In this document: positions 14,684 through 26,082 of the stretch, in pieces
Position numbering within the stretch: the stretch's first letter is position 1
Layout of the letters: each line of letters begins with the position of its first letter
DNA from: Thiohalomonas denitrificans
GTDB lineage: Bacteria; Pseudomonadota; Gammaproteobacteria; Thiohalomonadales; Thiohalomonadaceae
DNA: 32,343 nt
Direction: 5' to 3'
Assembly (NCBI RefSeq): GCF_016841685.1
Contig: NZ_JAENYR010000041.1
Location: forward strand, 1-32,343
The notes under the pieces: generated by a model
What the model saw: the letters and a program-made list of their open reading frames with translations, nothing else
What the model was told of the DNA's origin: nothing
The model's database searches: none
Program-made: the position numbers and the translations under genes

Positions 14684-14755
14684 CTGCTTTGTGATTTCAT
14701 GGCAAGACACCAGAAAACCGGGTGGCTACGCCTTTGCGGTGAGCACTCCGGCTAG

Positions 14756-14823
14756 GGGCCTGTCCGAGAATAGACTGACCTACAGTCTTGCCCTCTTGAC
14801 TGTCGCTATTCTCGGACAGGCTC
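14756..14823. mobile_element. Short inverted-repeat transposable element (MITE-like), copy 1
   Basis: The ends GGGCCTGTCCGAGAATAG and its near-perfect inverse (GAGCCTGTCCGAGAATAG on the other strand) form 18-base terminal inverted repeats with one mismatch. CTAG lies on both sides (14752-14755 and 14824-14827), as expected of a 4-base target duplication. The 68-base element has no coding capacity. Read on the minus strand, its first 39 bases match copy 2 (from 25637) at 34 positions, and its last 26 match at 25, so it is an internally shortened copy. It lies between the convergent lpxB and nadE, and the right CTAG contains the nadE stop. The whole can fold as a hairpin and may end transcripts from both sides. 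The parent transposon is not in the window. Confidence 0.75.
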
Positions 14824-15810
14824 CTAGTCAGCACAAAGCAGTGGTGGTGCATGAAGGTAACTGGCCATCCGCCGTTTCTTTTCGATATCGGCATAAACCC
14901 GTAACGCCCCGTCGGTGCCGATATCCAATACCTGACCCAGCTCCTGGGCTGCACGGCCATGGTCGTAGGCCCAGAGCGCCAGGTCCATCTCCCCGTACGG
15001 GAGTGCGAAATAGAATTCGTCCTGGCCCTGTGCAAGGCTGTAGGTGTCGGTACTCGGCAGAGCCATTCGGATCGACTCCGGGATATCGAAGTGCTCCGCC
15101 AACGCATACACCTGGGTTTTATAAAGATGCGCGATAGGCTTGAGATCGGCCGAGCCGTCACCATTTTTCACAAAAAAGCCCAGGTCATACTCGAGCCGAT
15201 TAGGCGTACCCACCACCGCATAGTTGAAGCGATCCGCATAGTGGTACTCCAGCATCTTGCGGACCCGCTGCTTGTAGTTGGTGGCAGCGACGATCTGCAG
15301 ATACTCCTCCATCCTCAGGCGCTGCTCACGTAACTGCCCGTCCGGGGATTCGACCACCAGGTTGAAGTGGTTGATCCGCCCGTCCTGACCGCCACGAATC
15401 ACGATTTTGTTGCGCCAGTCAGTGTCGTAGTCGGAAAAGACCCGTCGAATTGCATCATCCCGGGTCTGATAACACCCCAAGGCCTGCAGAGTTGCGGTGA
15501 TATCCCGGATTTCATAGCTGATGCCCAGCTGTTCTGCGAGCATCCGGCCCTTTTCGAGGCTTTCACTCGAGGCGTCATCTTCCGGCATCAGCAACGCGAA
15601 CACCCGCTCCGGTCCCACGGCCTCGACTGCCAGCGCGGCACAGACACTGCTGTCGACGCCTCCGGACAGACCCAGAACCATTCCCCGCCGTTTCAAACTG
15701 GCCCGAAGGTGCTCCCGGATTCCGCGACCGATCCGTTCGGCTTCGGAAGAGGGATCCAGGGTCAGCACTCCATAGCTCAGACTCGACTTCGCTGTCATCG
15801 TATCTGCCAT
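14824..15810 (-). CDS. NadE-like NAD synthetase family ATP pyrophosphatase
   Basis: NAD synthetases adenylate deamido-NAD with ATP and replace AMP by ammonia. The 328-residue protein has the PP-loop SGGVDSS (49-55) and GFFVKNGDGSADLKPIAHLY, a region typical of ammonia-dependent NadE. It is about 50 residues longer than usual, owing to an insert around 110-175 (RNKIVIRGGQDGRINHFN onward), and the usual N-x-x-E motif reads NRLEYD. There is no glutaminase domain, so it needs free or delivered ammonia. The ATG lies two bases after the ligase stop, with GAGGAAGG upstream, so it is the last gene of the polysaccharide operon. It could be the cell's NAD synthetase or a pathway-specific amidating enzyme. 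Its TAG stop is in the target site of the adjacent mobile element. Confidence 0.85.
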   Translation of the reverse strand: MADTMTAKSSLSYGVLTLDPSSEAERIGRGIREHLRASLKRRGMVLGLSGGVDSSVCAALAVEAVGPERVFALLMPEDDASSESLEKGRMLAEQLGISYEIRDITATLQALGCYQTRDDAIRRVFSDYDTDWRNKIVIRGGQDGRINHFNLVVESPDGQLREQRLRMEEYLQIVAATNYKQRVRKMLEYHYADRFNYAVVGTPNRLEYDLGFFVKNGDGSADLKPIAHLYKTQVYALAEHFDIPESIRMALPSTDTYSLAQGQDEFYFALPYGEMDLALWAYDHGRAAQELGQVLDIGTDGALRVYADIEKKRRMASYLHAPPLLCAD

Positions 15811-15812
15811 CG

Positions 15813-17414
15813 TTACACCTTCCTCAATGCGGCGCCTTCGCCTGTTATCTGCGCAAATTCGGCAGACAGATGTCGCTTATCCACCTTTCCGTTTGCTGTC
15901 CGAGGCAACTGTTCGATGATCTCAAAATGCCTGGGAACCATGAAAGGCTCGAGCTTTTCGCTACACCCCGCTTTCAGGTGCGCGGGAGTGATCTCGCTCG
16001 TTCCATCCGGTTCGACAAAGGCACAAATCGCCTGTCCCAAAATGGGGTCATCCATTCCGAGCACCGCCGCCTGGTGGACACCTTCGAGCCCGCAAAGCAC
16101 TCTCTCCACCTCTACCGGACTGACCTTTTCACCACGGCTTTTGATGACATCATCCGACCGTCCCACGAAATAGAGGTAGCCGTGCTCATCCGAACAGAAC
16201 AGGTCCTGGGTACACAGCATACGTTCCCCCGGCCAATTACCCGGCCTGAGCATCCGGGCCGTCTGCTCGGGTCGCCTCCAATACCCGAGCATCACGTGGG
16301 GGCCACGCACGTGAAGAATTCCGGTCTCCCCGGGCGGCGCCCGTGTGCCATCGTCACGCAGCACAAAAGCATCCGTCCCCGGGATCGCCTTGCCCACCGA
16401 ACCGGGCCGTTTTTCCAACTGCTCCGGATCGAGCCAGGTCGCTCGCTTGCACTCGGTCAAACCGTACATGCTGAAGACCAGCGATTCCGGAAACACCTTT
16501 TGCAGCCCGGCGATAAAACCTTCCGGCAGCGCTGCGGCAGTATTGGTTACCCGCTGCACGAAAGGAAATGTCTTGCCGTTGCGCCGGTAGCCGTCAATCA
16601 GACTCGCAAACAGCGTCGGTACGCCGGGAAACACCGTCGCCCGTTCTTTTTCCAGTCGCGCCAGCACTTGCCCGGCAAACGCAAACGATTTCTCCAGTAT
16701 CAGGGTTGCTCCGAGCTGAACCGACATAAGCAGCTGGTACAGGCCATAATCGAACGCCAAAGGCAAAACGCAGAGCACCCGGTCGTCTTCAGACAGACGC
16801 AGATATTCGATGATACTGGTCGATGCAAATACCATGCTCTGATGGTTGTGCATCACGCCTTTCGGTTCACCGGTACTGCCGGAGGTATAGATTAGCGCCG
16901 CCAGATCGGTCGCTATCACCGGTCGGGGCTCAATTAAAGGCGCCGCTACATCTTCAAATAGGGCTTCGATGCTTTCAAAGTGAACGGATTCTCCACTCAC
17001 GGCCGTATAACGCAAGCTGCTGTCGACCGTTCCCAGGACGCCGCTCAGCGGCTCAACAAGCTTCGCTTCTCCAATGAGCGCAGTTGCCTGGCTGTCCTTT
17101 GCGATAAACAGGAACTTGTCCGGCCTGGTCTGCGGATTGATCACGGCCAGTACGCCACCCGCGATCCACACTGCATAGATCGATACCGCCGCCGCCCATC
17201 CATTTTCCAGCCAAAGCAGCACCCGATCACCAGGCTGGACACCGTGCGTTTGCAGGGCACCGGCCAGACGCCGGGCGGAATCCCACAACTCCCGGTAGCT
17301 GTGGTGTACGCCGTCGGCGATCACACTCGCTTTGTCAGGTGCGCGTGATGAGCTCAATACCAGGGCGTCATGCACGAGCCGCTGAATACGAGTCGTACTT
17401 CCCCGCTCAGGCAT
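15813..17414 (-). CDS. AMP-forming acyl-CoA ligase-like enzyme, exosortase-A-locus type
   Basis: Enzymes of this superfamily adenylate a carboxylic acid and pass it to a thiol of CoA or a carrier protein. The 533-residue protein has the ATP-binding loop LIYTSGSTGEPKGV, the SRGEKVSPVEVERVL hinge region and the C-terminal catalytic lysine in RTANGKVDKRHL. The ATG at 17414 overlaps the last eight bases of the carrier-protein gene (AATGCCTGA), and the protein begins MPERGSTTRIQRLVHDALVL, so a longer start at 17501 is unlikely. The direct overlap with a carrier protein suggests the carrier, not CoA, is the thiol acceptor. It resembles the ligase family found in exosortase A loci (TIGR03098). The substrate acid is unknown. 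Confidence 0.88.
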   Translation of the reverse strand: MPERGSTTRIQRLVHDALVLSSSRAPDKASVIADGVHHSYRELWDSARRLAGALQTHGVQPGDRVLLWLENGWAAAVSIYAVWIAGGVLAVINPQTRPDKFLFIAKDSQATALIGEAKLVEPLSGVLGTVDSSLRYTAVSGESVHFESIEALFEDVAAPLIEPRPVIATDLAALIYTSGSTGEPKGVMHNHQSMVFASTSIIEYLRLSEDDRVLCVLPLAFDYGLYQLLMSVQLGATLILEKSFAFAGQVLARLEKERATVFPGVPTLFASLIDGYRRNGKTFPFVQRVTNTAAALPEGFIAGLQKVFPESLVFSMYGLTECKRATWLDPEQLEKRPGSVGKAIPGTDAFVLRDDGTRAPPGETGILHVRGPHVMLGYWRRPEQTARMLRPGNWPGERMLCTQDLFCSDEHGYLYFVGRSDDVIKSRGEKVSPVEVERVLCGLEGVHQAAVLGMDDPILGQAICAFVEPDGTSEITPAHLKAGCSEKLEPFMVPRHFEIIEQLPRTANGKVDKRHLSAEFAQITGEGAALRKV

Positions 17415-17667
17415 TTGCCGCGATGCGCTGTTTTCGAAGGACAAAGCCGACAATTTGGTTGATAGAGTCGAGGTTGTCGGGAAGGAGTTCATCATCGGCA
17501 ACCCCGATGCCGAACTCCTCTTCGAGAAAGGCGACCAGCTCCATCACACCGGTAGAATCGATGATCCCGCGTTCCAGCAGGGATTCCTGATTTTCCAATA
17601 CGGAATCATCGTCAGTAAAAAGAAAATTATCGAGGATATAGGCGCGAACATCATGCTCGATGGACAT
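17407..17667 (-). CDS. Acyl carrier protein
   Basis: The 86-residue protein is a phosphopantetheine carrier. The attachment serine is Ser38 in GIIDSTGVMELVAFLEEEFG; the usual DSL motif here reads DST, which also occurs in standalone carriers. The protein is acidic and four-helical in pattern. The chosen ATG at 17667 gives MSIEHDVRAYILDNF, has GGAGAG just upstream, and overlaps the amidotransferase stop by 17 bases; an earlier in-frame start at 17718 would lie deep inside that gene. Its own stop overlaps the ligase start. The arrangement implies a dedicated carrier for this operon, not the fatty-acid AcpP. Confidence 0.9.
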   Translation of the reverse strand: MSIEHDVRAYILDNFLFTDDDSVLENQESLLERGIIDSTGVMELVAFLEEEFGIGVADDELLPDNLDSINQIVGFVLRKQRIAANA

Positions 17668-19630
17668 TGTACTCTCCGCTTCCTTGCAGGTTGGGGTGCT
17701 CCGATGCCATTGCGGCATTTTCGATAAAAAACTGGTGCCATAGCTGCGTCGAAAGGATGCCGACGAAAGCCATGTTATCTTTATAGCCTAGCGTGCCACC
17801 ACGTGCCATCTTGCGTTGCAGCATGGCGACGCGTGCCGGATCAAAATAGCCATAATCTCGCAGTTTTTCCGGTTTCATCATTTCATGAATGAATTCCGGA
17901 GTTTGACCACTGAGGAATGGCGCAGACTCCGGCGCCCGGTACGGCTGCTTGGTCCGCTGCGCGATGCGTTTCGGCAGGTACCGGCCCACCGCCTTTTTGA
18001 GGAGGTATTTTTCGGTAAGGCCCCTCATTTTCAGGCGCGGGTGGATCCGGTTCGCGAATTCGATAATACGGTGATCCAGAAATGGATAGCGTCCTTCGAC
18101 TCCGTTGGCCATCAGCATGCGATCGCCTTGAGAACACAGCAGATAGCCCGCCATCAGAGTCTTTGATTCAAGATACTGTGCTTTTTCAAACCAGTGCCAC
18201 CGCTCAAAACCGGCGGGCAAAAGGGAACGGGCCGATTCATAACCGGAGACGGCGTGTTCCTGCATCCGTTCCGAGAAAAAACCTTTTATGGCCTCGGTCG
18301 TGGTCCAGCGGGGGACGTGAGAAAACCAAGGACTATCAGGCTCATGCAGTCCCCGCCCAAAAAACTGTTTGAGATAAGCCAAGGACTGCCCGCCGGCGAT
18401 ATTCAAGTAAGGATAGAGCCGCTTCAGCAGTGCCGGACGGAATTTCGAGTCTGGATTTCGGGCCCAGAACTGGCGGATTTTGGCTTCCTTGAAGATGTCG
18501 TAGCCACCCAGAACTTCATCCGCACCCTCTCCCGTCAGTACGACCTTGTAACCTTCACCCCGCACATGCCCCGACAACAATTTCATCGGTGTCGGTGCGG
18601 TACGAAGCAGAGGGCTTTCCGCATGCCAAACGGTGTCCGAGAACGACTCGGCGATATCACTCAACCCGCACCGAAAGGACCGGTGCTGCGTTCCGAGGTG
18701 CGATACCATCTCTGTCTGATAGTCAGATTCGTCATATCCCTCTTGATCGAAGCCGATCGAAAAGGTCTTCAGTGGCGCGCTATCTGCTTGGCGGATGAGA
18801 GCGGCAATTGCCGAGGAATCCAATCCTCCGGACAGATAAGCCCCAACCGGAACATCGGACCGAAGACGGATTCGGACTGCGTCTGCCAGCAGGGACCGCA
18901 ACTCTTCTGCCAACTCATCTTCATCCCGGTGGTCATAGATGCCATCGGGGGGATAGCTCCAGTCCCAGTAGCGGCGAATGGATTTGTTTCCATTTTCGAT
19001 GGTCATCGTGTGCCCCGGAGGCAGCTCATGAATCCCCTCAAACATCGTATTCGGGCTTATCGGTGCCCAGTACGTCATGACCTGTTCCAGTGCCGCCGGG
19101 TTGGCACGCGAAATCCTTTTTTGGACGGGCTGAATCGCCTTGATCTCGGAGGCGAAAAAGAGCCGGTCTCCCTCTTGGGAATAGAACAGCGGTGCGATCC
19201 CGACCCGGTCCCGAACCAGGATCAGTTTTTCCTTCACGCTATCCCACAGAGCGATGGCGAACTGACCATTCAGCTGGTGCACGAACTCTTCGCCATGATC
19301 TTCATAGAGGTGAACGATGACCTCGGTGTCCGATTCCGTTCGAAAGCTGTGTCCAGCTGATTTGAGTTGCTGACGAAGTTCGGGGAAATTAAAGATTTCG
19401 CCATTCAAGACCACCCAAATAGAGCCGTCCTCGTTAGCGAGAGGCTGTTTCCCGCCCTCCAGGTCGATAATGCTAAGCCGTGCGTGGGCCAGCCCTACAG
19501 GCCCCATCGGACGCACGTCGGCGCCGTCAGGTCCACGATGGGCCAGTTGGACAATCATTGCACCCAGTTCCAGGCTGCCGACCGCCGGCATTCCTTGCCG
19601 AAGGTTCAAAATACCCGCTATTCCACACAT
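17651..19630 (-). CDS. Asparagine-synthase-like glutamine amidotransferase
   Basis: The protein takes ammonia from glutamine and uses it to amidate an adenylated carboxylate. It begins MCGIAGIL, with Cys2 as the glutaminase nucleophile once the initiator methionine is removed, so the start is 19630 rather than the longer frame at 19705. The class II glutaminase domain shows HRGPDGADV and LNGEIFN. The synthetase domain has the PP-loop SGGLDSSA (267-274) and VLTGEGADEVLGGYDIF. At 659 residues it is longer than AsnB (554). It resembles the exosortase-A-associated amidotransferase (TIGR03108). It starts 13 bases after the glycosyltransferase stop. True asparagine synthesis is possible, but the operon points to modifying a sugar acid or carrier-bound acid. 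Confidence 0.9.
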   Translation of the reverse strand: MCGIAGILNLRQGMPAVGSLELGAMIVQLAHRGPDGADVRPMGPVGLAHARLSIIDLEGGKQPLANEDGSIWVVLNGEIFNFPELRQQLKSAGHSFRTESDTEVIVHLYEDHGEEFVHQLNGQFAIALWDSVKEKLILVRDRVGIAPLFYSQEGDRLFFASEIKAIQPVQKRISRANPAALEQVMTYWAPISPNTMFEGIHELPPGHTMTIENGNKSIRRYWDWSYPPDGIYDHRDEDELAEELRSLLADAVRIRLRSDVPVGAYLSGGLDSSAIAALIRQADSAPLKTFSIGFDQEGYDESDYQTEMVSHLGTQHRSFRCGLSDIAESFSDTVWHAESPLLRTAPTPMKLLSGHVRGEGYKVVLTGEGADEVLGGYDIFKEAKIRQFWARNPDSKFRPALLKRLYPYLNIAGGQSLAYLKQFFGRGLHEPDSPWFSHVPRWTTTEAIKGFFSERMQEHAVSGYESARSLLPAGFERWHWFEKAQYLESKTLMAGYLLCSQGDRMLMANGVEGRYPFLDHRIIEFANRIHPRLKMRGLTEKYLLKKAVGRYLPKRIAQRTKQPYRAPESAPFLSGQTPEFIHEMMKPEKLRDYGYFDPARVAMLQRKMARGGTLGYKDNMAFVGILSTQLWHQFFIENAAMASEHPNLQGSGEYNVHRA

Positions 19631-19643
19631 ACCTGTGACCTGT

Positions 19644-20546
19644 TTAGTTCCCCGCGCTGCAAAATCCGTGCGGTAGAAGACACTTCGCCAATCCTTTCCA
19701 GGCACCCATCAAAGAAGGCTCGAACCTGATGGCCTTCACGAAATCCAATGCTGCTGCAGTCCGGTTCCCTTCCAGGGAAAGATAGTTGATACCACGCCCG
19801 AGGTATGACAGCGCCTCTGTTTTCCGAATGCGCTTCTTACTGACCATTCCGGGAAATTCCTCCAGAAAACGACTCCGTATGACGGCATCCGAATCGTGTC
19901 TCCCCTTGAAGTTGTGCGAACAGGTCTGCCCGTCCCAGCTCCTCCACAACAAAAGCGGTTCCGGCACATGAACAAACTTCCAGACCGCTGAAACCCGCAG
20001 CCAGAGATCATAATCCAAACCCATGCTCAGGCTTTCCGAAAATCCGCCCACTGCCTCCAGAGATCGCCTACGCGCAACCGCCGACGACATGGGTATGAAA
20101 TTTCCCGAAAACAATGGTTGGGTGATGCAACCAGAATATCGTTGGATTTTTGGAAAATACTGAACACTGCCCTTTTCATCCATGACAACCACATCGCTGT
20201 AGACCACGCCGACCTTGTGGTCTGTAAGGAAGGCCGGTATTTGGCGTTCCAGCTTATCTCTGGTCCACAGGTCATCCGCATCCAGAAAGGCCACGAATTC
20301 GCTACGTGCAACCTCCAGCGTCAGATTGCGTGCCTTACCCTGCCCCATACGATCTCGCCGAAGATACCTCACCCGGTCGTCGTCCTTGAACTGTTCCATG
20401 ACCCGTTCGGTGTCGTCGGTAGAACCGTCATCCACTACGACGATCTCCGATACCGGATAGCTTTGCTCCAATGCCGATAGGATAGCGGTGGCGATGTGTT
20501 TCCCCATGTTGTGAGTAGGGATTAAAACACTGACTGTAGGCTCCAT
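19644..20546 (-). CDS. Family 2 glycosyltransferase
   Basis: A GT-A fold glycosyltransferase that adds a sugar from a nucleotide donor to the growing repeat unit on the inner face of the membrane. The 300 residues start SVLIPTHNMGKHIATAIL with the family's first strand, then IVVVDDGSTDDTERV and the metal-binding AFLDADDLW. The middle holds the acceptor-side pattern GGFSESLSMGLDYDLWLRV. There is no membrane segment. The ATG has AAGGAT upstream. The C-terminal 60 residues (KTEALSYLGRGINYLSLEGN onward) look like a short helical repeat. It follows the FemAB gene by 79 bases. Donor and acceptor cannot be read from the sequence. Confidence 0.93.
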   Translation of the reverse strand: MEPTVSVLIPTHNMGKHIATAILSALEQSYPVSEIVVVDDGSTDDTERVMEQFKDDDRVRYLRRDRMGQGKARNLTLEVARSEFVAFLDADDLWTRDKLERQIPAFLTDHKVGVVYSDVVVMDEKGSVQYFPKIQRYSGCITQPLFSGNFIPMSSAVARRRSLEAVGGFSESLSMGLDYDLWLRVSAVWKFVHVPEPLLLWRSWDGQTCSHNFKGRHDSDAVIRSRFLEEFPGMVSKKRIRKTEALSYLGRGINYLSLEGNRTAAALDFVKAIRFEPSLMGAWKGLAKCLLPHGFCSAGN

Positions 20547-20625
20547 GATATTTATCCTTGGCCTCTAATCGTATACCGAAGATCCATTTTCGAGTCGCGT
20601 ACACCCGTCGGTGTCCTGCGGAAAT

Positions 20626-21729
20626 TCACGGCAGATTCTTCACGATTCCGGGACCTAATCGATTAGCGACACTCAGTGGAAGCCTCTTCCACAGGGCGAT
20701 CGCATACTTGAATCTGCGGTTTTGCGGCGTCAAATCAGGTAACTCTCCATCCTCTGGAAGCGCATAGGACCAATGCAGCTGTTTGGCGCTGGCTCCCCAC
20801 TGGCGTTTGAATCTGTAGGTCCCGCTCTGATAAGTCGATCGACCAAAATCAAAGCTTTTTGCGCCCTTTTCGATCGCTTCCGATAAGGCGTTCCAGTACA
20901 GCAGCATATTGACACCCAGACGGTTATATTCTCGCAGCGAAGATGCCCAGGGGATTTCCATGGTGTTGCCATCGAACAGAAGAATTCCTGCAGCGACAGG
21001 CTTTCGCGCTATGTAGACAACCCCAATGCCTGCCCTCTCTGCGAAATTCTGCAGAATCTCTGCAAAAAACCTTTTGGGATAGACCGGCGTTCCCAGATCT
21101 CTCATGTTACGTGAAAAGACCCTATAGAAATCATCAATACGTTCCCCACCTCCACAAACAAATTGCGCCCCTTCCCGCATCGGACGACGAACCTGTGACC
21201 TCACTTTCCCCCCCAATTCACTCCAGAGTCGGTCACCGTCTGATGGCAATTCTCTGAGCATCGCCACCTTGTCCTTTCTGCATGGCAAATCCGCATCTCG
21301 CGAGATTGAATCCCGAAATTCAATGTGTCCCACACCCTGCTGGCTTGCGCGAACCCACGCCTGTTCCATTAAATCTCTTTCGATATCGGGATCGGTTCCC
21401 AGTGCCCCGCCATAGTTAAAGAAGGGAAGCGAGATTTGATAGGTACCAAACAACTTGCTTCTGATCTCGACCAATGGAAGTACACCCGCTAGTTCTCCAT
21501 ATTCATCAATTTGCATCCAATAGTGGGTTTTGTGCCCAAAGACCCGCTCAATTAACCGGCCCCACTCCAACCGGTGATAGATGGTCCGTCTTTCGTGGCA
21601 CGATATGAATTCGTCCCATTGTTTAACCTCTGTCTCCTCGAAGTCCTTCGCGTGCTTGCAAAGAGTCCGGCGTTTTCCGGAGACGGTTCGTTCTGGCCAT
21701 CGTCTGCTGTTCACGTGCAGCTGCATCAT
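20626..21729 (-). CDS. FemAB-like GNAT-fold protein, exosortase-A-locus type
   Basis: FemAB proteins transfer an amino acid from aminoacyl-tRNA, or act as related GNAT acyltransferases. The protein of about 367 residues shows IYHRLEWGRLIERVFGHKTHYW near the N-terminus in two motifs, IEFRDSISRDADLP in the middle, and IARKPVAAGILLFDGNTME and FDFGRSTYQSGTYRFKRQWG in the second GNAT domain, as in the exosortase-A FemAB family (TIGR03019). The start is unclear: ATGs at 21756, 21729 and 21726 and a GTG at 21714 are in frame, none with a good ribosome site, and all lie inside the upstream deacetylase gene, giving an overlap of at least 92 bases. It may add an amino acid or acyl group to a sugar of the polymer. 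Confidence 0.85.
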   Translation of the reverse strand: MMQLHVNSRRWPERTVSGKRRTLCKHAKDFEETEVKQWDEFISCHERRTIYHRLEWGRLIERVFGHKTHYWMQIDEYGELAGVLPLVEIRSKLFGTYQISLPFFNYGGALGTDPDIERDLMEQAWVRASQQGVGHIEFRDSISRDADLPCRKDKVAMLRELPSDGDRLWSELGGKVRSQVRRPMREGAQFVCGGGERIDDFYRVFSRNMRDLGTPVYPKRFFAEILQNFAERAGIGVVYIARKPVAAGILLFDGNTMEIPWASSLREYNRLGVNMLLYWNALSEAIEKGAKSFDFGRSTYQSGTYRFKRQWGASAKQLHWSYALPEDGELPDLTPQNRRFKYAIALWKRLPLSVANRLGPGIVKNLP

Positions 21730-22636
21730 AGGAAGTAACCATACTTGTTTTGCCATGAATGCTCAGATAACCCAGCTCGGCCAGCACGTTTCTGGCCGTA
21801 TCAAACTGAAAATCACCGAGTAATCGACACAAACGCTGCTCACACCGCGTCAGATTCAGGTAATGGCGAAATCGGGATTTGATTCCGGCCGCAAGCCGCG
21901 GCTGCTCCGGATCGATCTCCCATGGATGGACATAAAACATGAAACGACACGATCCGATTTGATTGGTCCGTCGTAGGGCCGCCCGGGTAAAGGCGTAGGG
22001 ATAAAGCCTGAAATAGCCACCTCCACCAACCGGCAGGTTTCGTCCGAACACGGGGAGCGTGGCGGGTGGGAATTCGGTCAGGGGGCCGGAATTTGTGGGT
22101 CGTTGGTGTATATCCCGGGGGGAACCGGGTATCCCATAGATGTCTCTTCGGACGGGAAAAATACTTGAATCGTATTGAAAGCCAACCTCATGAAGGATAT
22201 CCAACGCCCATAGTGATTCGGAAGTGACGGACCAGCTGGCCGCCCGGTAGCCGATCACCGGTTGCTGCGCCTGCTCCTCAAGGACGGCTTTTGCTCGAAT
22301 GGTTTCCTGAAGGAAGGTCGTGTTCTTTTGCTCATAGACCAGTGCGTGACTGTACCCGTGACATGCCACTTCGTGGCCATTATCGGCGATGCGCCTGACC
22401 AGATTCGGGTATTTTTCTGCCACCCACCCGAGGACGAAGAAAGTCGCCTTTACCGAACTCCGGTCGAATATCCTTATTAACCTATCGGTGTTTCTCTCCA
22501 CTCTGGCGGGAAACTTATCCCAGTCTTGGCGGACAACGGAGTGACGAAAAGCAGAGACGTGGAAATAATCTTCAACATCCACGCTCATCGCGTTTATCGG
22601 CCGTTCCTTGACCACTGCCCTCTCCCTGTGACTCAT
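21623..22636 (-). CDS. Polysaccharide deacetylase with DUF3473, exosortase-A-locus type
   Basis: A NodB-fold carbohydrate esterase that removes N-acetyl groups from polymer sugars. The 337-residue protein shows NAMSVDVEDYFH (metal aspartates), CHGYSHALVYEQ (metal histidines) and VIGYRAASWSVT, then the DUF3473 region with LPVGGGGYFRLYP and FMFYVHPWEID. This matches the family used to define exosortase A exopolysaccharide loci (TIGR03006). No signal peptide is seen, so it may act in the cytoplasm or with a partner. The usual end falls near residue 290; a further 45 low-conservation residues run into the overlapping FemAB gene. The ATG follows GGGAA; a second ATG (MSVDVED) is 48 bases inside. 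It follows the chain-length gene by 46 bases. Confidence 0.92.
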   Translation of the reverse strand: MSHRERAVVKERPINAMSVDVEDYFHVSAFRHSVVRQDWDKFPARVERNTDRLIRIFDRSSVKATFFVLGWVAEKYPNLVRRIADNGHEVACHGYSHALVYEQKNTTFLQETIRAKAVLEEQAQQPVIGYRAASWSVTSESLWALDILHEVGFQYDSSIFPVRRDIYGIPGSPRDIHQRPTNSGPLTEFPPATLPVFGRNLPVGGGGYFRLYPYAFTRAALRRTNQIGSCRFMFYVHPWEIDPEQPRLAAGIKSRFRHYLNLTRCEQRLCRLLGDFQFDTARNVLAELGYLSIHGKTSMVTSYDAAAREQQTMARTNRLRKTPDSLQAREGLRGDRG

Positions 22637-22682
22637 TTCCCGGTTTACGTGAAAGTCGAACCGCTATCGAATATCCCACCTC

Positions 22683-24233
22683 TTAACCGCTTGCCGGGGG
22701 CACTATCATGCCCAATTGCGCCACTGTAATGCCGCCAAACACCAGAACGAGAGCCACGACGACAAGCCCGATTAGCCAGCGCTCCCGCAGTTGCTGTTTT
22801 TTATGCTCCGGACTCGATATCAGGGCTACACTACCGATGACCTCCATCCCCCCAATCTCTTCAAGCATACTGCGCGTATAGACCGCCGGTCGAACCTGGG
22901 ACAGAACCGCTGCCAACCCGACTCCCATGCCGAGAGAGACCATAAGGACCAGGCTATTCAGTATCGGTCGATTGGGTGCCGCCGGGAAAACCGGCTCCCT
23001 CGGTGGATCGATAATGCTGAACTTTACCTTTTCACCCGCTTTATCCACATCCTCGGATATTCTGGCTGCTGCCATTCTCTCCAAGAGGGAGTTATACCGC
23101 TCCTTGTGTACGTTGTAGTCACGAGTGAGGCGCTGTAGCTTCGCTTCTACTTGCGGCAGGGTCTTGGTCTGCCTGCGAAGTGTCTCAACTCGCTCCGCGT
23201 ACTCATCCCGTTTTACCTGGAGCGAAGCGATATCGGCCTTGGTTTCCCCTAGGGTCAACTGAAGCTGCTGAACCAATGGATTGGCCCCCGTGTCTTCGTT
23301 ACCGAGCGTCGCCCGCTGACGACGTAGATCCTGCAGCGTCGCCTTCGTCTCCCTGTAGTCGGGATGAAATTCGGTATACCTCAGAGAAAGTTCATCAAGA
23401 CGACTTTCCAGCGTCAGGATCCGCTCTTCCAGGGGCGATCGCACCGGCTGACCATCCGGACCGAGAATGACACGCATTTCCCTGGCTTTTTCCAACTGCG
23501 AGTGCAACTCATCGCGGCGGCGTTTCGCTTGCCGTAAATCCAATTCAGCTTCCGAGAGAGCCCCACGGGATTGCTGCAGGCGTTGAAAATAGGAGCCTCC
23601 CTGCTCGGGCAAAACATCCGCGTACTTCTCCTTGAATTCTTCAACCCGCTTTTCCGATGCTAGGAGTTTCTCTTCGTAAGCGCTGATCTGTTCAGTCAGA
23701 AACTCCTCCGCCACTTTGGAGTTGTGCAAAGAATCTTGCCTGGTTTTCGCCATAAAGGTTTCCAAGAGAGCCAGGACGATCTTTTTCGCCGTCTCCGGAT
23801 CGCCATGACTGCTATTGATCGTGTAGATATCCGGAGCGGCTCGCGGATTATCAGCACTGTTGCTGGCTTCTATTTCGATGGATCGCGCAAGTCCGATGAG
23901 CGCCCTTTCATGCTCTTCGGGGGTTTCAGCTGTCTCTACGATACCCACCTTTTGGGCCACAGCTTCCAGGTTGGGTCGGCTCAACAGGATCCGGGTCATC
24001 GCGCCGAGCCGATCCCCGGCATCCTCGGTGTCGACCGATATGCCCTGAAGCAGAGGTTTCAAAATACTATCGGTATCGATATACACCTTTGCCTGTGCCG
24101 AGTACTGGTTGGGCATCGTGCCAACGAAAAGCCAGCCTCCCACCGCTACAAGCCAGGCAATTGCCAGGGCCTGCCACCGATATCTCAGGGCTTCCCGCGC
24201 GTATACGACGATCTGCTGAAAGATTTCGTTCAC
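22683..24233 (-). CDS. Polysaccharide chain-length determinant (Wzz-like), exosortase-A-locus type
   Basis: An inner-membrane co-polymerase that controls polymer length. The 516-residue protein has an N-terminal membrane helix (about residues 20-38, ALAIAWLVAVGGWLFVG), a long periplasmic coiled-coil region (KVAEEFLTEQISAYEEKLLA and QAKRRRDELHSQLEKAREM) and two C-terminal hydrophobic segments, with the proline-rich DPPREPVFPAAPNRP motif before them. It resembles the exosortase-A chain-length family (TIGR03007). I chose the GTG at 24233, with AAGGGAT seven bases upstream, giving VNEIFQQIVVYAREALR; the in-frame ATG at 24347 would add an atypical hydrophilic 38-residue leader. No kinase domain is fused. 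It is the first gene of the minus-strand operon. Confidence 0.92.
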   Translation of the reverse strand: MNEIFQQIVVYAREALRYRWQALAIAWLVAVGGWLFVGTMPNQYSAQAKVYIDTDSILKPLLQGISVDTEDAGDRLGAMTRILLSRPNLEAVAQKVGIVETAETPEEHERALIGLARSIEIEASNSADNPRAAPDIYTINSSHGDPETAKKIVLALLETFMAKTRQDSLHNSKVAEEFLTEQISAYEEKLLASEKRVEEFKEKYADVLPEQGGSYFQRLQQSRGALSEAELDLRQAKRRRDELHSQLEKAREMRVILGPDGQPVRSPLEERILTLESRLDELSLRYTEFHPDYRETKATLQDLRRQRATLGNEDTGANPLVQQLQLTLGETKADIASLQVKRDEYAERVETLRRQTKTLPQVEAKLQRLTRDYNVHKERYNSLLERMAAARISEDVDKAGEKVKFSIIDPPREPVFPAAPNRPILNSLVLMVSLGMGVGLAAVLSQVRPAVYTRSMLEEIGGMEVIGSVALISSPEHKKQQLRERWLIGLVVVALVLVFGGITVAQLGMIVPPASG

Positions 24234-24628
24234 GAACTTATCCCTTGGTGATGAAAACCCGGAGTAATCTCTATCCTGTTCGGCTATTGACTGCCGCCAC
24301 AGCGAGTGAAGTCGCCATGGAACTGCTTTCTCCAAGCCGGTCGGCAAGCGTGACTTACTGCCGAATACACCATCACGTATAGCTCTGTTTTATATTCCAT
24401 GCAAACCGCTCGGACGGCCGCTATCCGGCGCATCGCTGCGGGGCGTGTTTGGTTCTATAGTATGGAAAGTAGCAATCCGGGAACGTGAGTTTCTAAGTAT
24501 TGTGTTGTGCGAAATTCGATCCGTGAAGGGGCGCCAGCCATATGGACGAGCGGTAATTTTTCGACAGCCAATTGTCTTGCTCGCGTGCAGCTTGGCTGTT
24601 ACGACTCGTCCACGGGTTTCGAAATCCG
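24234..24628. other. Intergenic divergent promoter region, no gene
   Basis: These 395 bases separate the divergent chain-length gene and the second deacetylase gene, so promoters for both directions should lie here. Open frames in it are short and unconvincing. A minus-strand TATAAA at about 24390 and a plus-strand TATAGT at about 24457 could be -10 boxes, but neither has a good -35 partner. No sigma54 site of the GG-N10-GC form with a good consensus was seen. The right end holds the nested inverted repeat at 24543-24612. Confidence 0.5.
24543..24612 (+). promoter_or_regulatory. Nested inverted repeats in the leader of the second deacetylase gene
   Basis: TGGACGAG (24543-24550) pairs perfectly with CTCGTCCA (24605-24612). 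Inside it ACAGCCAA (24564-24571) pairs perfectly with TTGGCTGT (24592-24599). The structure ends 16 bases before the ATG at 24629, which has no clear ribosome site of its own. It could be an RNA leader structure that controls translation or a DNA operator. The two 8-base arms are seen directly; the regulatory role is inferred. Confidence 0.45.
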
Positions 24629-25654
24629 ATGCTAAAACGAATCATCAAAACTTCAGTCGGCTCCTTCATTGCCGCAACAGGATTGGATCGACGCTCATTT
24701 GGAGCGCCCCGACTGATTGTGCTGATGTATCACCGCGTATTGCCCTTTGATGAGATCGCAAAACCAACCGTGCAGCCCGGCATGGCTATCTCCACGGCCG
24801 CTTTCAAAAGTCAGCTTGAAGCACTCAGGAAACACCATGAACTGGTACACCTTTCCGATTGGATGACGCAGGCACAATCTGGCGCTCCACTACCGAAAAG
24901 TGCGATTGCCGTCACATTCGATGACGGGTGGGCTGACAACTATCAGCATGCGTATCCGCTGCTTGCGAGGTACCAGGTTCCGGCAACCCTGTTTCTGGCA
25001 ACCGACTATATCAGCACCAACGACTGGTTCTGGCCGGAACGCCTGGCCAGAGTGATAGCAAAGGGGTGGCCCGACATGCGCCGCCACCCGGCTTTTACCT
25101 GGATCGAGAAGCTGCTACCGCCGGATGCCGACTCGGGGCGGTTGTCCCGAACTGATATTCACTGCATGATTTCTGCAGCCAAGTCACACGGCGATACCGA
25201 GTTACGCCGGCGCATTGAATTGGCAGAGCGCACTGCCGGCATCGGCCGGCCGCAAACGCGGGCACTGTTGACATGGGACGAAACCAGAAACATGACAACA
25301 TCGGGGCTTGTCGAACTGGGTTCCCACACACGGACGCATCAACGCCTTGATGCTACGCTTTCGCACTCTTCTCTTGAACATGAGGTTGTGGGCTCCAGCA
25401 ATCAGATCGTCAAGGAGACAGGGGTTAAACCGGTTCTGTTCTGCTACCCAAACGGGAATCGCTCCGATGATGCGGAGGCTGTCGTCCGAAGGCACTATTC
25501 GGGGGCCTGCACCACCGTCCGCGGCTGCAATACCCGGAACACGGATCCGTTTCGCATTGCACGCATCGGAATACACCAGGGTATGGGGACTTCGACCGCC
25601 CTCTTTCGGTTTCACCTCTCCTGCTTGAATCGCCAGGAGTCTGTCCGAGAATAA
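24629..25654 (+). CDS. Second polysaccharide deacetylase
   Basis: A NodB-fold deacetylase: TFDDGW (about residues 96-101) supplies the catalytic and metal aspartates and GSHTRTHQRLD the metal histidines (233, 237). LIVLMYHRVLP near the N-terminus is typical of this group, which includes deacetylases of polysaccharide loci. The ATG at 24629 gives MLKRIIKTSVGSF; the longer frame from a TTG at 24572 is unlikely. No signal peptide is evident. The 341-residue protein ends NRQESVRE, where ESVRE and the TAA stop come from the terminal repeat of the adjacent mobile element; the original end was probably after CLNR. The core is intact, so the gene is likely functional. It is divergent from the chain-length gene. 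Confidence 0.88.
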   Translation: MLKRIIKTSVGSFIAATGLDRRSFGAPRLIVLMYHRVLPFDEIAKPTVQPGMAISTAAFKSQLEALRKHHELVHLSDWMTQAQSGAPLPKSAIAVTFDDGWADNYQHAYPLLARYQVPATLFLATDYISTNDWFWPERLARVIAKGWPDMRRHPAFTWIEKLLPPDADSGRLSRTDIHCMISAAKSHGDTELRRRIELAERTAGIGRPQTRALLTWDETRNMTTSGLVELGSHTRTHQRLDATLSHSSLEHEVVGSSNQIVKETGVKPVLFCYPNGNRSDDAEAVVRRHYSGACTTVRGCNTRNTDPFRIARIGIHQGMGTSTALFRFHLSCLNRQESVRE

Positions 25655-25793
25655 CGACCGTCACGAGGACAAGACGGATTGAGTCAGATCCTTCGGTCTT
25701 TGAGGCGAATAGTGGTCTATTTAACGAAAATGAGCGGAAAATCTGGCCAATCAGGCTTCGCCGCAGTAGGTCAGCCTATTCTCGGACAGGCTG
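25637..25793. mobile_element. Short inverted-repeat transposable element (MITE-like), copy 2
   Basis: The left end GAGTCTGTCCGAGAATAA and the right end (CAGCCTGTCCGAGAATAG on the other strand) form imperfect 18-base terminal repeats. CCAG precedes and CTAG follows, consistent with a CTAG target duplication with one change. The 157 bases contain no open frame of note. The ends match copy 1 over about 39 and 26 bases, while about 90 central bases are absent from copy 1. The family cannot be named from the ends alone; a CTAG target duplication would fit the YTAR preference known for the IS5 group, which is only a suggestion. Confidence 0.72.
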
Positions 25794-25817
25794 CTAGTGG
25801 TCCATGCGGAAAAAAAT

Positions 25818-25841
25818 AGTGTGGCTCTCAGAGCCCCCCAC
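25818..25841 (+). terminator. GC-rich hairpin without a T run, possible terminator
   Basis: GGCTCT and AGAGCC (25823-25835) pair around a single C, and the flanking AGTG and CACT extend the stem across a bulge. There is no T run afterwards, so intrinsic termination is doubtful. It lies downstream of the deacetylase and copy 2 of the mobile element. Confidence 0.25.
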
Positions 25842-25920
25842 TAATGGGCCAAAACCAGGCGCGCTGCGCAGGGAATGGCGCGCCCTTTCCAGACAGCGCA
25901 ACGCGGGATTGGCCCATTAG
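25841..25920. repeat. 80-base palindromic element with complex internal pairing
   Basis: Perfect 12-base inverted repeats CTAATGGGCCAA (25841-25852) and TTGGCCCATTAG (25909-25920) enclose a GC-rich centre with further pairings: GCGCTG (25861-25866) with CAGCGC (25894-25899), and GGAA with TTCC inside that. Unlike copies 1 and 2 it shows no relation to the CTGTCCGAGAATA ends. It could be a second type of short mobile palindrome or a structured RNA. No other copy was noticed in the window. The rest of the gap 25655-26082 holds only the mobile element, the hairpin and the leader of the next gene. Confidence 0.5.
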
Positions 25921-26082
25921 CGGAGCTCCCTTCGGGCCGGCTCACAAGGCTCCAATGCGTTGCAATCGGCTGAATTGTTCACGCGATCAGTCCTGTGCGC
26001 TCCTCGCCTGCCGATAGCGCTTGTGAGACCGTCTGAGTGTTGCACTATTTTCCACATGGACCACTGGATAAGGAGTATCAAG

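Follow-up and report, generated by a model that had tools for sequence, protein, structure and literature searches.

A MITE family of Thiohalomonas denitrificans that targets TA within CTAG and frequently sits on stop codons

Miniature inverted-repeat transposable elements (MITEs) that overlap gene ends or extend a protein are known from Coxiella, and one that targets CTAG or YTAA is known from Pseudomonas syringae; what is said here on these elements, and on IS1272, rests on parts of the respective papers. MITEPsy1 of P. syringae is a short non-coding MITE with a CTAG or YTAA target whose transposition has been demonstrated (PMC3189936). In Coxiella burnetii, QMITE1 and QMITE2 overlap the 3' ends of ubiB, kdgK and CBU_2020 by 1-3 base pairs (bp), and one QMITE copy gives EnhC (gene enhC) a C-terminal extension (PMC5896051). 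IS1272, a staphylococcal member of the IS1182 family of insertion sequences, uses palindromic targets and is reported to replace a stem-loop (PMC5678879). The present study concerns a stretch of 32,343 nucleotides of Thiohalomonas denitrificans (the window in the following) in which two related MITE copies lie at the stop codons of nadE and of a polysaccharide deacetylase gene. We consider it likely that the family is moved in trans by an IS1182 transposase of the ISMno8 type, and that most of the placement on stops is due to the choice of CTAG together with the purging of insertions that break genes.

MITE copy 1 (14755..14824, 70 bp) has the inverted ends GGGGCCTGTCCGAGAATAG / CTATTCTCGGACAGGCTCC, which form a 19-bp outer stem on folding, and lies between two CTAG words (14752-14755 and 14824-14827). 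Its left TA target copy is found at 14753..14754 and its right one at 14825..14826; the latter constitutes, together with element base 14824, the TAG stop codon (14824-14826) of the nadE (NAD synthase) open reading frame (14824..15810, minus strand), which ends on the element. MITE copy 2 (25636..25794, 159 bp) is close in length to a 160-161-bp form found repeatedly in other genomes and is flanked by CCAG (25633-25636) and CTAG (25794-25797). Both copies carry CTGTCCGAGAATA exactly at each end, and their places, their flanking words and the inclusion of the nadE stop in the right CTAG are as given in the original prediction. Copy 2 adjoins the second polysaccharide deacetylase gene (24572..25654, plus strand), whose natural end codon at 25634-25636 now reads CAG, so that the protein ends ...LNR QESVRE before a TAA at 25652-25654; the CA at 25634..25635 is the altered left target copy. 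In the sister genome (G001, the one congener compared with G000, the T. denitrificans genome that carries the window) the locus lacks both copy 2 and the adjacent element B, and the gene stops with ...LNR TAG (CGG TAG) at exactly this codon. The window gene thus once ended there, and the lost stop adds six element codons, as had been proposed from the window alone. The accompanying proposal that CCAG was once CTAG holds for the stop codon TAG itself; the sister genome has GTAG at this place, so an ancestral CTAG is presumed. The nadE gene of G001 also stops at TAG and is adjoined by an apparent remnant of an element end, GACAGACTGCTAG (L092), so the nadE locus provides no clean empty site.

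The two window repeats belong to one non-autonomous MITE family, being short, multicopy, bounded by inverted ends and devoid of a transposase gene. The ends of the paired elements of G000 and G001 are GGAGCCTGTCCGAGAATA. Exact matches to the 13-mer end number 80 across G000 (reversed-pattern control: 0) and 23 in G001 (control: 0); 18 further genomes of the same taxonomic family were searched and have none. A count that required an exact 13-mer at one end or both and removed duplicate flanks gave 84 sites (66 in G000 and 18 in G001); 62 are paired, with both ends found, and 22 were seen from one side only. Paired copies are 56-444 bp long, with 161 bp (7) and 131 bp (6) as the commonest lengths. 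An Rfam scan of the window gave 0 matches, and a 50-base stretch from inside the MITE shows 86% identity to a segment of pglX (BREX), on a Moellerella plasmid (L173) and on a Salmonella plasmid.

The insertion target was read from 75 ends with an exact partner end. The consensus is CTA, then GGAGCCTGTCCGAGAATA; the base following TA is G in 74 of the 75 ends and the base preceding it is C in 62, and the five positions -4 to -8 beyond the element have no strong base preference. TA is present on both sides of intact copies. Some copies differ in the outer base between their two sides, with GTAG on the left and CTAG on the right (L094, L097) or CTAG on the left and CTAA on the right (L069, L106, L107), which identifies the G as the element's own and TA alone as duplicated. 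The duplicated target is thus TA, usually inside a preferred CTAG, and the flanking G is the first base of the element; the idea that CTAG itself is the flank duplication does not hold, as that word combines TA with the element's own end bases. The junction changes more than most terminal-repeat positions: among 120 ends it reads CTAG in 53, CCAG in 24 and CTGG in 12. Rapid, Vsr-like decay of CTAG was rejected as the source of CCAG and CTGG, since over 160,617 aligned bases CTAG was changed in 34 of 98 instances (0.35), compared with 0.25-0.56 for the other TA words listed. Vsr itself gave no match in G001 and in G000 only one below threshold (L172, C31:30005-30205, 24.1 bits with a cut-off of 27). 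The idea that CCAG is itself a native target and that CA is duplicated was likewise discarded, since no pair among 60 paired elements had CA in direct orientation on both sides. Faster decay of CTAG elsewhere does not account for the excess of CCAG and CTGG junctions.

Stop codons are hit frequently. Genes were called by codon usage, after training on 799 kb of DNA sampled from G000 and G001, and 24 of the 84 sites proved to lie on the stop codon of such a gene. This count is low, since it misses L029 (junction shifted by one base), L056 and the window's copy 2, whose codon score is weak. When the junction of 60 paired elements was set to TA, 18 lay on stops, 40 were intergenic and 2 lay within called genes (L030, L094). 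Independently of any caller, open runs of at least 450 nucleotides toward the element were distributed as 27/7/4 over phases 0/1/2 for 146 ends of both genomes, phase 0 being the frame of the element's TAG. Ten stop-site genes were scanned; six match full-length models above the cut-off and end at most 3 positions from the model end, namely trpE (454/455), hisZ (387/389), trmB (193/194), an mlaE-type permease (257/260), purB (454/456) and infB (585/587), whereas the other four gave domain-level or sub-threshold matches with little information on the gene end. The element-side ends of these six genes are therefore natural ends and not truncations; infB is essential in Escherichia coli. For 19 of the same 60 paired elements, the fetched DNA of the other species contained both flanking sequences, two of these pairs being one place viewed from both sides. 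Read by eye, 14 of the 19 places have no element in the other species. Six are stop sites (window copy 2 and the others from the list of 84); at each of them the gene of the other species stops at the same codon, with TAG at copy 1, copy 2, L011 and L094, TAA at L042 and TGA at L062. At L053 and L110 the same flanks enclose an element in both species; this insertion is probably older than the species split.

How much of this placement follows from the supply of CTAG was judged from 357 CTAGs in samples chosen mostly at a distance from known elements, two MITE-end CTAGs being left out. They comprise 46 at stops, 189 intergenic and 122 within genes, although about 86% of the sampled DNA is coding, in agreement with the earlier expectation that CTAG is rare inside genes. 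The word is also depleted relative to the expectation from trinucleotides, with 180 observed against 410 expected in G000 and 179 against 374 in G001. The share of element sites on stops exceeds that among all CTAGs (24/84 against 46/357, p=0.0008) and shows a large excess over plain TA outside gene bodies (p=3e-9). Gene starts are avoided by the elements, with 1 of 64 distances to a gene 5' end being 30 nucleotides or less, as compared to 26 of 203 for control CTAGs.

The terminal repeat also bears on what happens to a stop codon once it is hit. The element begins with G, so TA|G restores a TAG from either a TAG or a TAA stop; L042 has TAA in the sister species and TAG in the element-bearing gene. 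Read in frame, the repeat is TAG GAG CCT GTC CGA GAA TAG, and because of the second in-frame TAG the loss of the first stop adds only six residues. The T of this second stop is retained in 57 of 75 ends, a GAACA subfamily is without it, and in the window deacetylase the second stop is TAA rather than TAG. L049, with a CCAG junction and the tail QAPVRE, looks like the window deacetylase, albeit without an empty site as proof, and the altered junction of L095 reads GAG TAG.

As to the transposase, a short end query returned 7 plasmid records with weak E-values, of which 3 were examined as IS1182-type and 1 is a Pseudomonas record. The three IS1182-type elements (L129-L131) are on alphaproteobacterial plasmids, one is annotated as ISMno8 family, and their 14 end bases, GGAGCCTGTCCGAG, are identical at 5 of 6 ends with one mismatch at the sixth, with CTAG flanks on both sides. 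A viral contig (L119) carries IS1182-type transposase frames with TTATTCTCGGACAGTCTCC|TAG about 520 nucleotides downstream, a one-sided match of 17/19 end bases; its left element end was looked for and not found. Ten viral contigs have the end pattern, and inspection of all flanks revealed a CTAG flank only in L119, the contig in which frames were examined. No intact element combining the full MITE end with an IS1182-family transposase was found in these searches. DUF772, the domain of such transposases, has no locus in G000 and one fragment without MITE ends in G001, cut at a contig end (L128, C8 end); the 12 other hosts of the family, all multi-contig assemblies, have 10 DUF772 loci, 0 of them with MITE ends. 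The five DDE_Tnp_1 loci of G000 and G001 were rejected as a source, since none has MITE ends. In G000, the contigs C11, C119, C134, C139, C146, C153, C154 and C155 have element ends no more than about 200 bp from a contig end. The repeats may thus have broken the assembly and might conceal an autonomous copy. For ISPse1, an IS1182 element of Paracoccus, the available part of the source gives the entry 4 in what appears to be a duplication column, its heading being uncertain (PMC3281130); by analogy, a TA duplication plus G/C element ends would resemble such a 4-nucleotide duplication.

Outside Thiohalomonas the family is patchy. Of 369 genomes of the class, 13 from 11 families, G000 among them, contain the exact 20-base end TAGGAGNCTGTCCGAGAATA. 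Among the matches listed outside G000, 8 of 9 end pairs have a TA-to-TA distance of exactly 165 bp, corresponding to a 161-bp element, the commonest form in G000; this identical form across genomes suggests horizontal spread. For 90 ends from 12 other genomes among the matches listed, collected with a pattern for which at least one of the two ends must have an intact TA, and without a CTAG control of their own, open runs fall into phases 0/1/2 as 11/1/3 (at least 300 nucleotides) and 7/0/2 (at least 450 nucleotides). The bias to the TAG frame is thus present in these genomes too, with fewer stop sites among the matches listed. A related element on a plasmid of Pseudomonas sp. MPC6 lies about 20 nucleotides beyond the TGA of a gene.

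Taken together, we propose the following course. After mobilisation in trans, probably by an ISMno8-type transposase of the IS1182 family, the element would insert into TA, mostly inside CTAG, with duplication of the TA. As CTAG is depleted and rare in genes, TAG stops preceded by C would make up a sizeable share of the harmless CTAG targets; selection would remove insertions within genes, and those at stops and between genes would persist. At a stop, the first G of the element would turn the TAG or TAA that was hit into TAG and leave the protein unchanged, and the spare in-frame TAG of most ends would cap a later stop loss at six residues, as in the window deacetylase (there with TAA) and apparently in L049. 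An insertion at a stop probably does little harm, and we infer that it is nearly neutral.

Several observations weigh against this reading. Placement on stops is frequent, as originally predicted for C-preceded TAG codons, yet no clear preference emerges beyond the supply of extragenic CTAGs (24/84 against 46/235, p=0.09), a comparison by which supply explains most of the placement but not provably all. Supply leaves unexplained that copies with both TA flanks intact lie on stops in 13 of 19 cases (against 46/235, p=1.6e-5); there is no excess among the remaining paired copies (7/43). Since selection on the stop shields one flank from change, the unprotected far flank serves as a separate comparison, and it is intact in 13 of 20 cases, compared with 31 of 84 ends, a weaker difference (p=0.026). 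Terminal-repeat mismatches are similar (means 1.65 and 2.00, p=0.23). Several comparisons were made, so we treat the stop excess among intact-flank copies as a lead; the controls were mostly sampled off element sites, and both counts rest on a simple gene caller. With respect to the transposase, the ISMno8-type ends diverge from the MITE ends after base 14, and the search of G000, G001 and the 12 further hosts for a DUF772 locus with MITE ends was negative. The excess among intact-flank copies would fit an active targeting of gene ends beyond the choice of CTAG, through translation or transcription termination or through 3'-end structure, as would the larger share of element-to-3'-end distances of at most 30 nucleotides (27/52 against 90/239 for control CTAGs). 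We nevertheless regard such targeting as rather unlikely, given the p value of the full set, the lack of excess in pairs without two intact flanks, the featureless positions -4 to -8 and the small number of TAG-phase runs (11 or 7 of the 90 ends listed) in the 12 other genomes. Somewhat less doubtful, though still tentative, is an extension of the course proposed above, namely that the anatomy of the element amounts to a self-healing landing at stops, perhaps a selected safe-harbour strategy, with recent insertions favouring stops beyond CTAG supply.

Copies might also be retained as a domesticated 3'-end signal, with the hairpin guarding the mRNA or terminating transcription. The predicted RNA fold of copy 1 (-41.6 kcal/mol, z -8.1) and that of copy 2 (z -5.7) agree with this idea; however, neither MITE copy contains a terminator-like site (element B has one), the genes on either side of stop-site copies are in tandem in 14 cases and convergent in 5, the other species is without the element at the 14 of 19 places mentioned, and the occurrence across the class is patchy, all of which makes a retained signal improbable. 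Equally improbable in our view is an origin from IS630/Tc1-type elements or from IS5-type ones like MITEPsy1 instead of IS1182. IS630 elements duplicate TA, a general trait with which the duplication observed here agrees; a search of G000 for DDE_3 transposases gave 0 matches, and an IS630 origin was rejected on this basis. MITEPsy1 of P. syringae likewise uses CTAG or YTAA (PMC3189936), but its ends GGAAGGTCTGAAAAAGCC, compared by eye, differ from GGAGCCTGTCCGAGAATA. The 14 end bases equal to those of IS1182-type elements, and the IS1182-type frames of L119 with TTATTCTCGGACAGTCTCC|TAG on the one side where an end was found, argue for mobilisation by an IS1182-type transposase.

A second repeat family is represented in the window by element B (25797..26064), whose ends GTGGTCCATGYGGAAAA are unlike those of the MITE. 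It adjoins MITE copy 2 on the same stop-codon TA (25795..25796), which serves as right flank of the MITE and left flank of element B, and it is not at the corresponding site of the sister genome. Among 92 loose matches to its end in the fetched DNA, many of them by chance, the junction reads CTA|G in 12 and CTG|G in 5. DNA resembling element B was found in several other genomes.

The family provides a concrete case, amenable to counting, of a scarce tetranucleotide target that steers insertions off gene bodies and onto stops, including those of the housekeeping genes purB and infB. Small C-terminal tails of the QESVRE kind are explained as element-derived, which is a warning for gene annotators. 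The findings raise the question whether transposons exploit the sequence avoidance of their hosts to reach safe sites; if the self-healing landing were true, a transposon could build up at housekeeping gene ends almost free of cost.

The literature searched, subscription papers being mostly outside it, yielded no description of a CTAG-targeting element biased towards stop codons. The ISMno8-type IS1182 insertion sequences of plasmids of Methylobacterium nodulans, M. radiotolerans and Xanthobacter share with the MITE the beginning GGAGCCTGTCCGAG of their ends and the CTAG flanks (3/3 copies). They differ from it by a transposase of 444 amino acids (DUF772 + DDE_Tnp_1) and by the end bases past position 14, and 0/3 lie on an annotated stop codon, the gene table being incomplete. 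MITEPsy1 has other terminal repeats, linked to ISPsy2, and a reported 4-nucleotide duplication, and a stop-codon bias is not described in the part of the text considered (PMC3189936). QMITE1 and QMITE2 are likened to the present MITE by description and not by sequence; the part of the report available describes neither a CTAG target nor a test of stop bias (PMC5896051). In contrast to IS1272, as far as its partial description goes (PMC5678879), intact copies of the present MITE are bordered by TA at either end, a pattern that suggests an ordinary target duplication.

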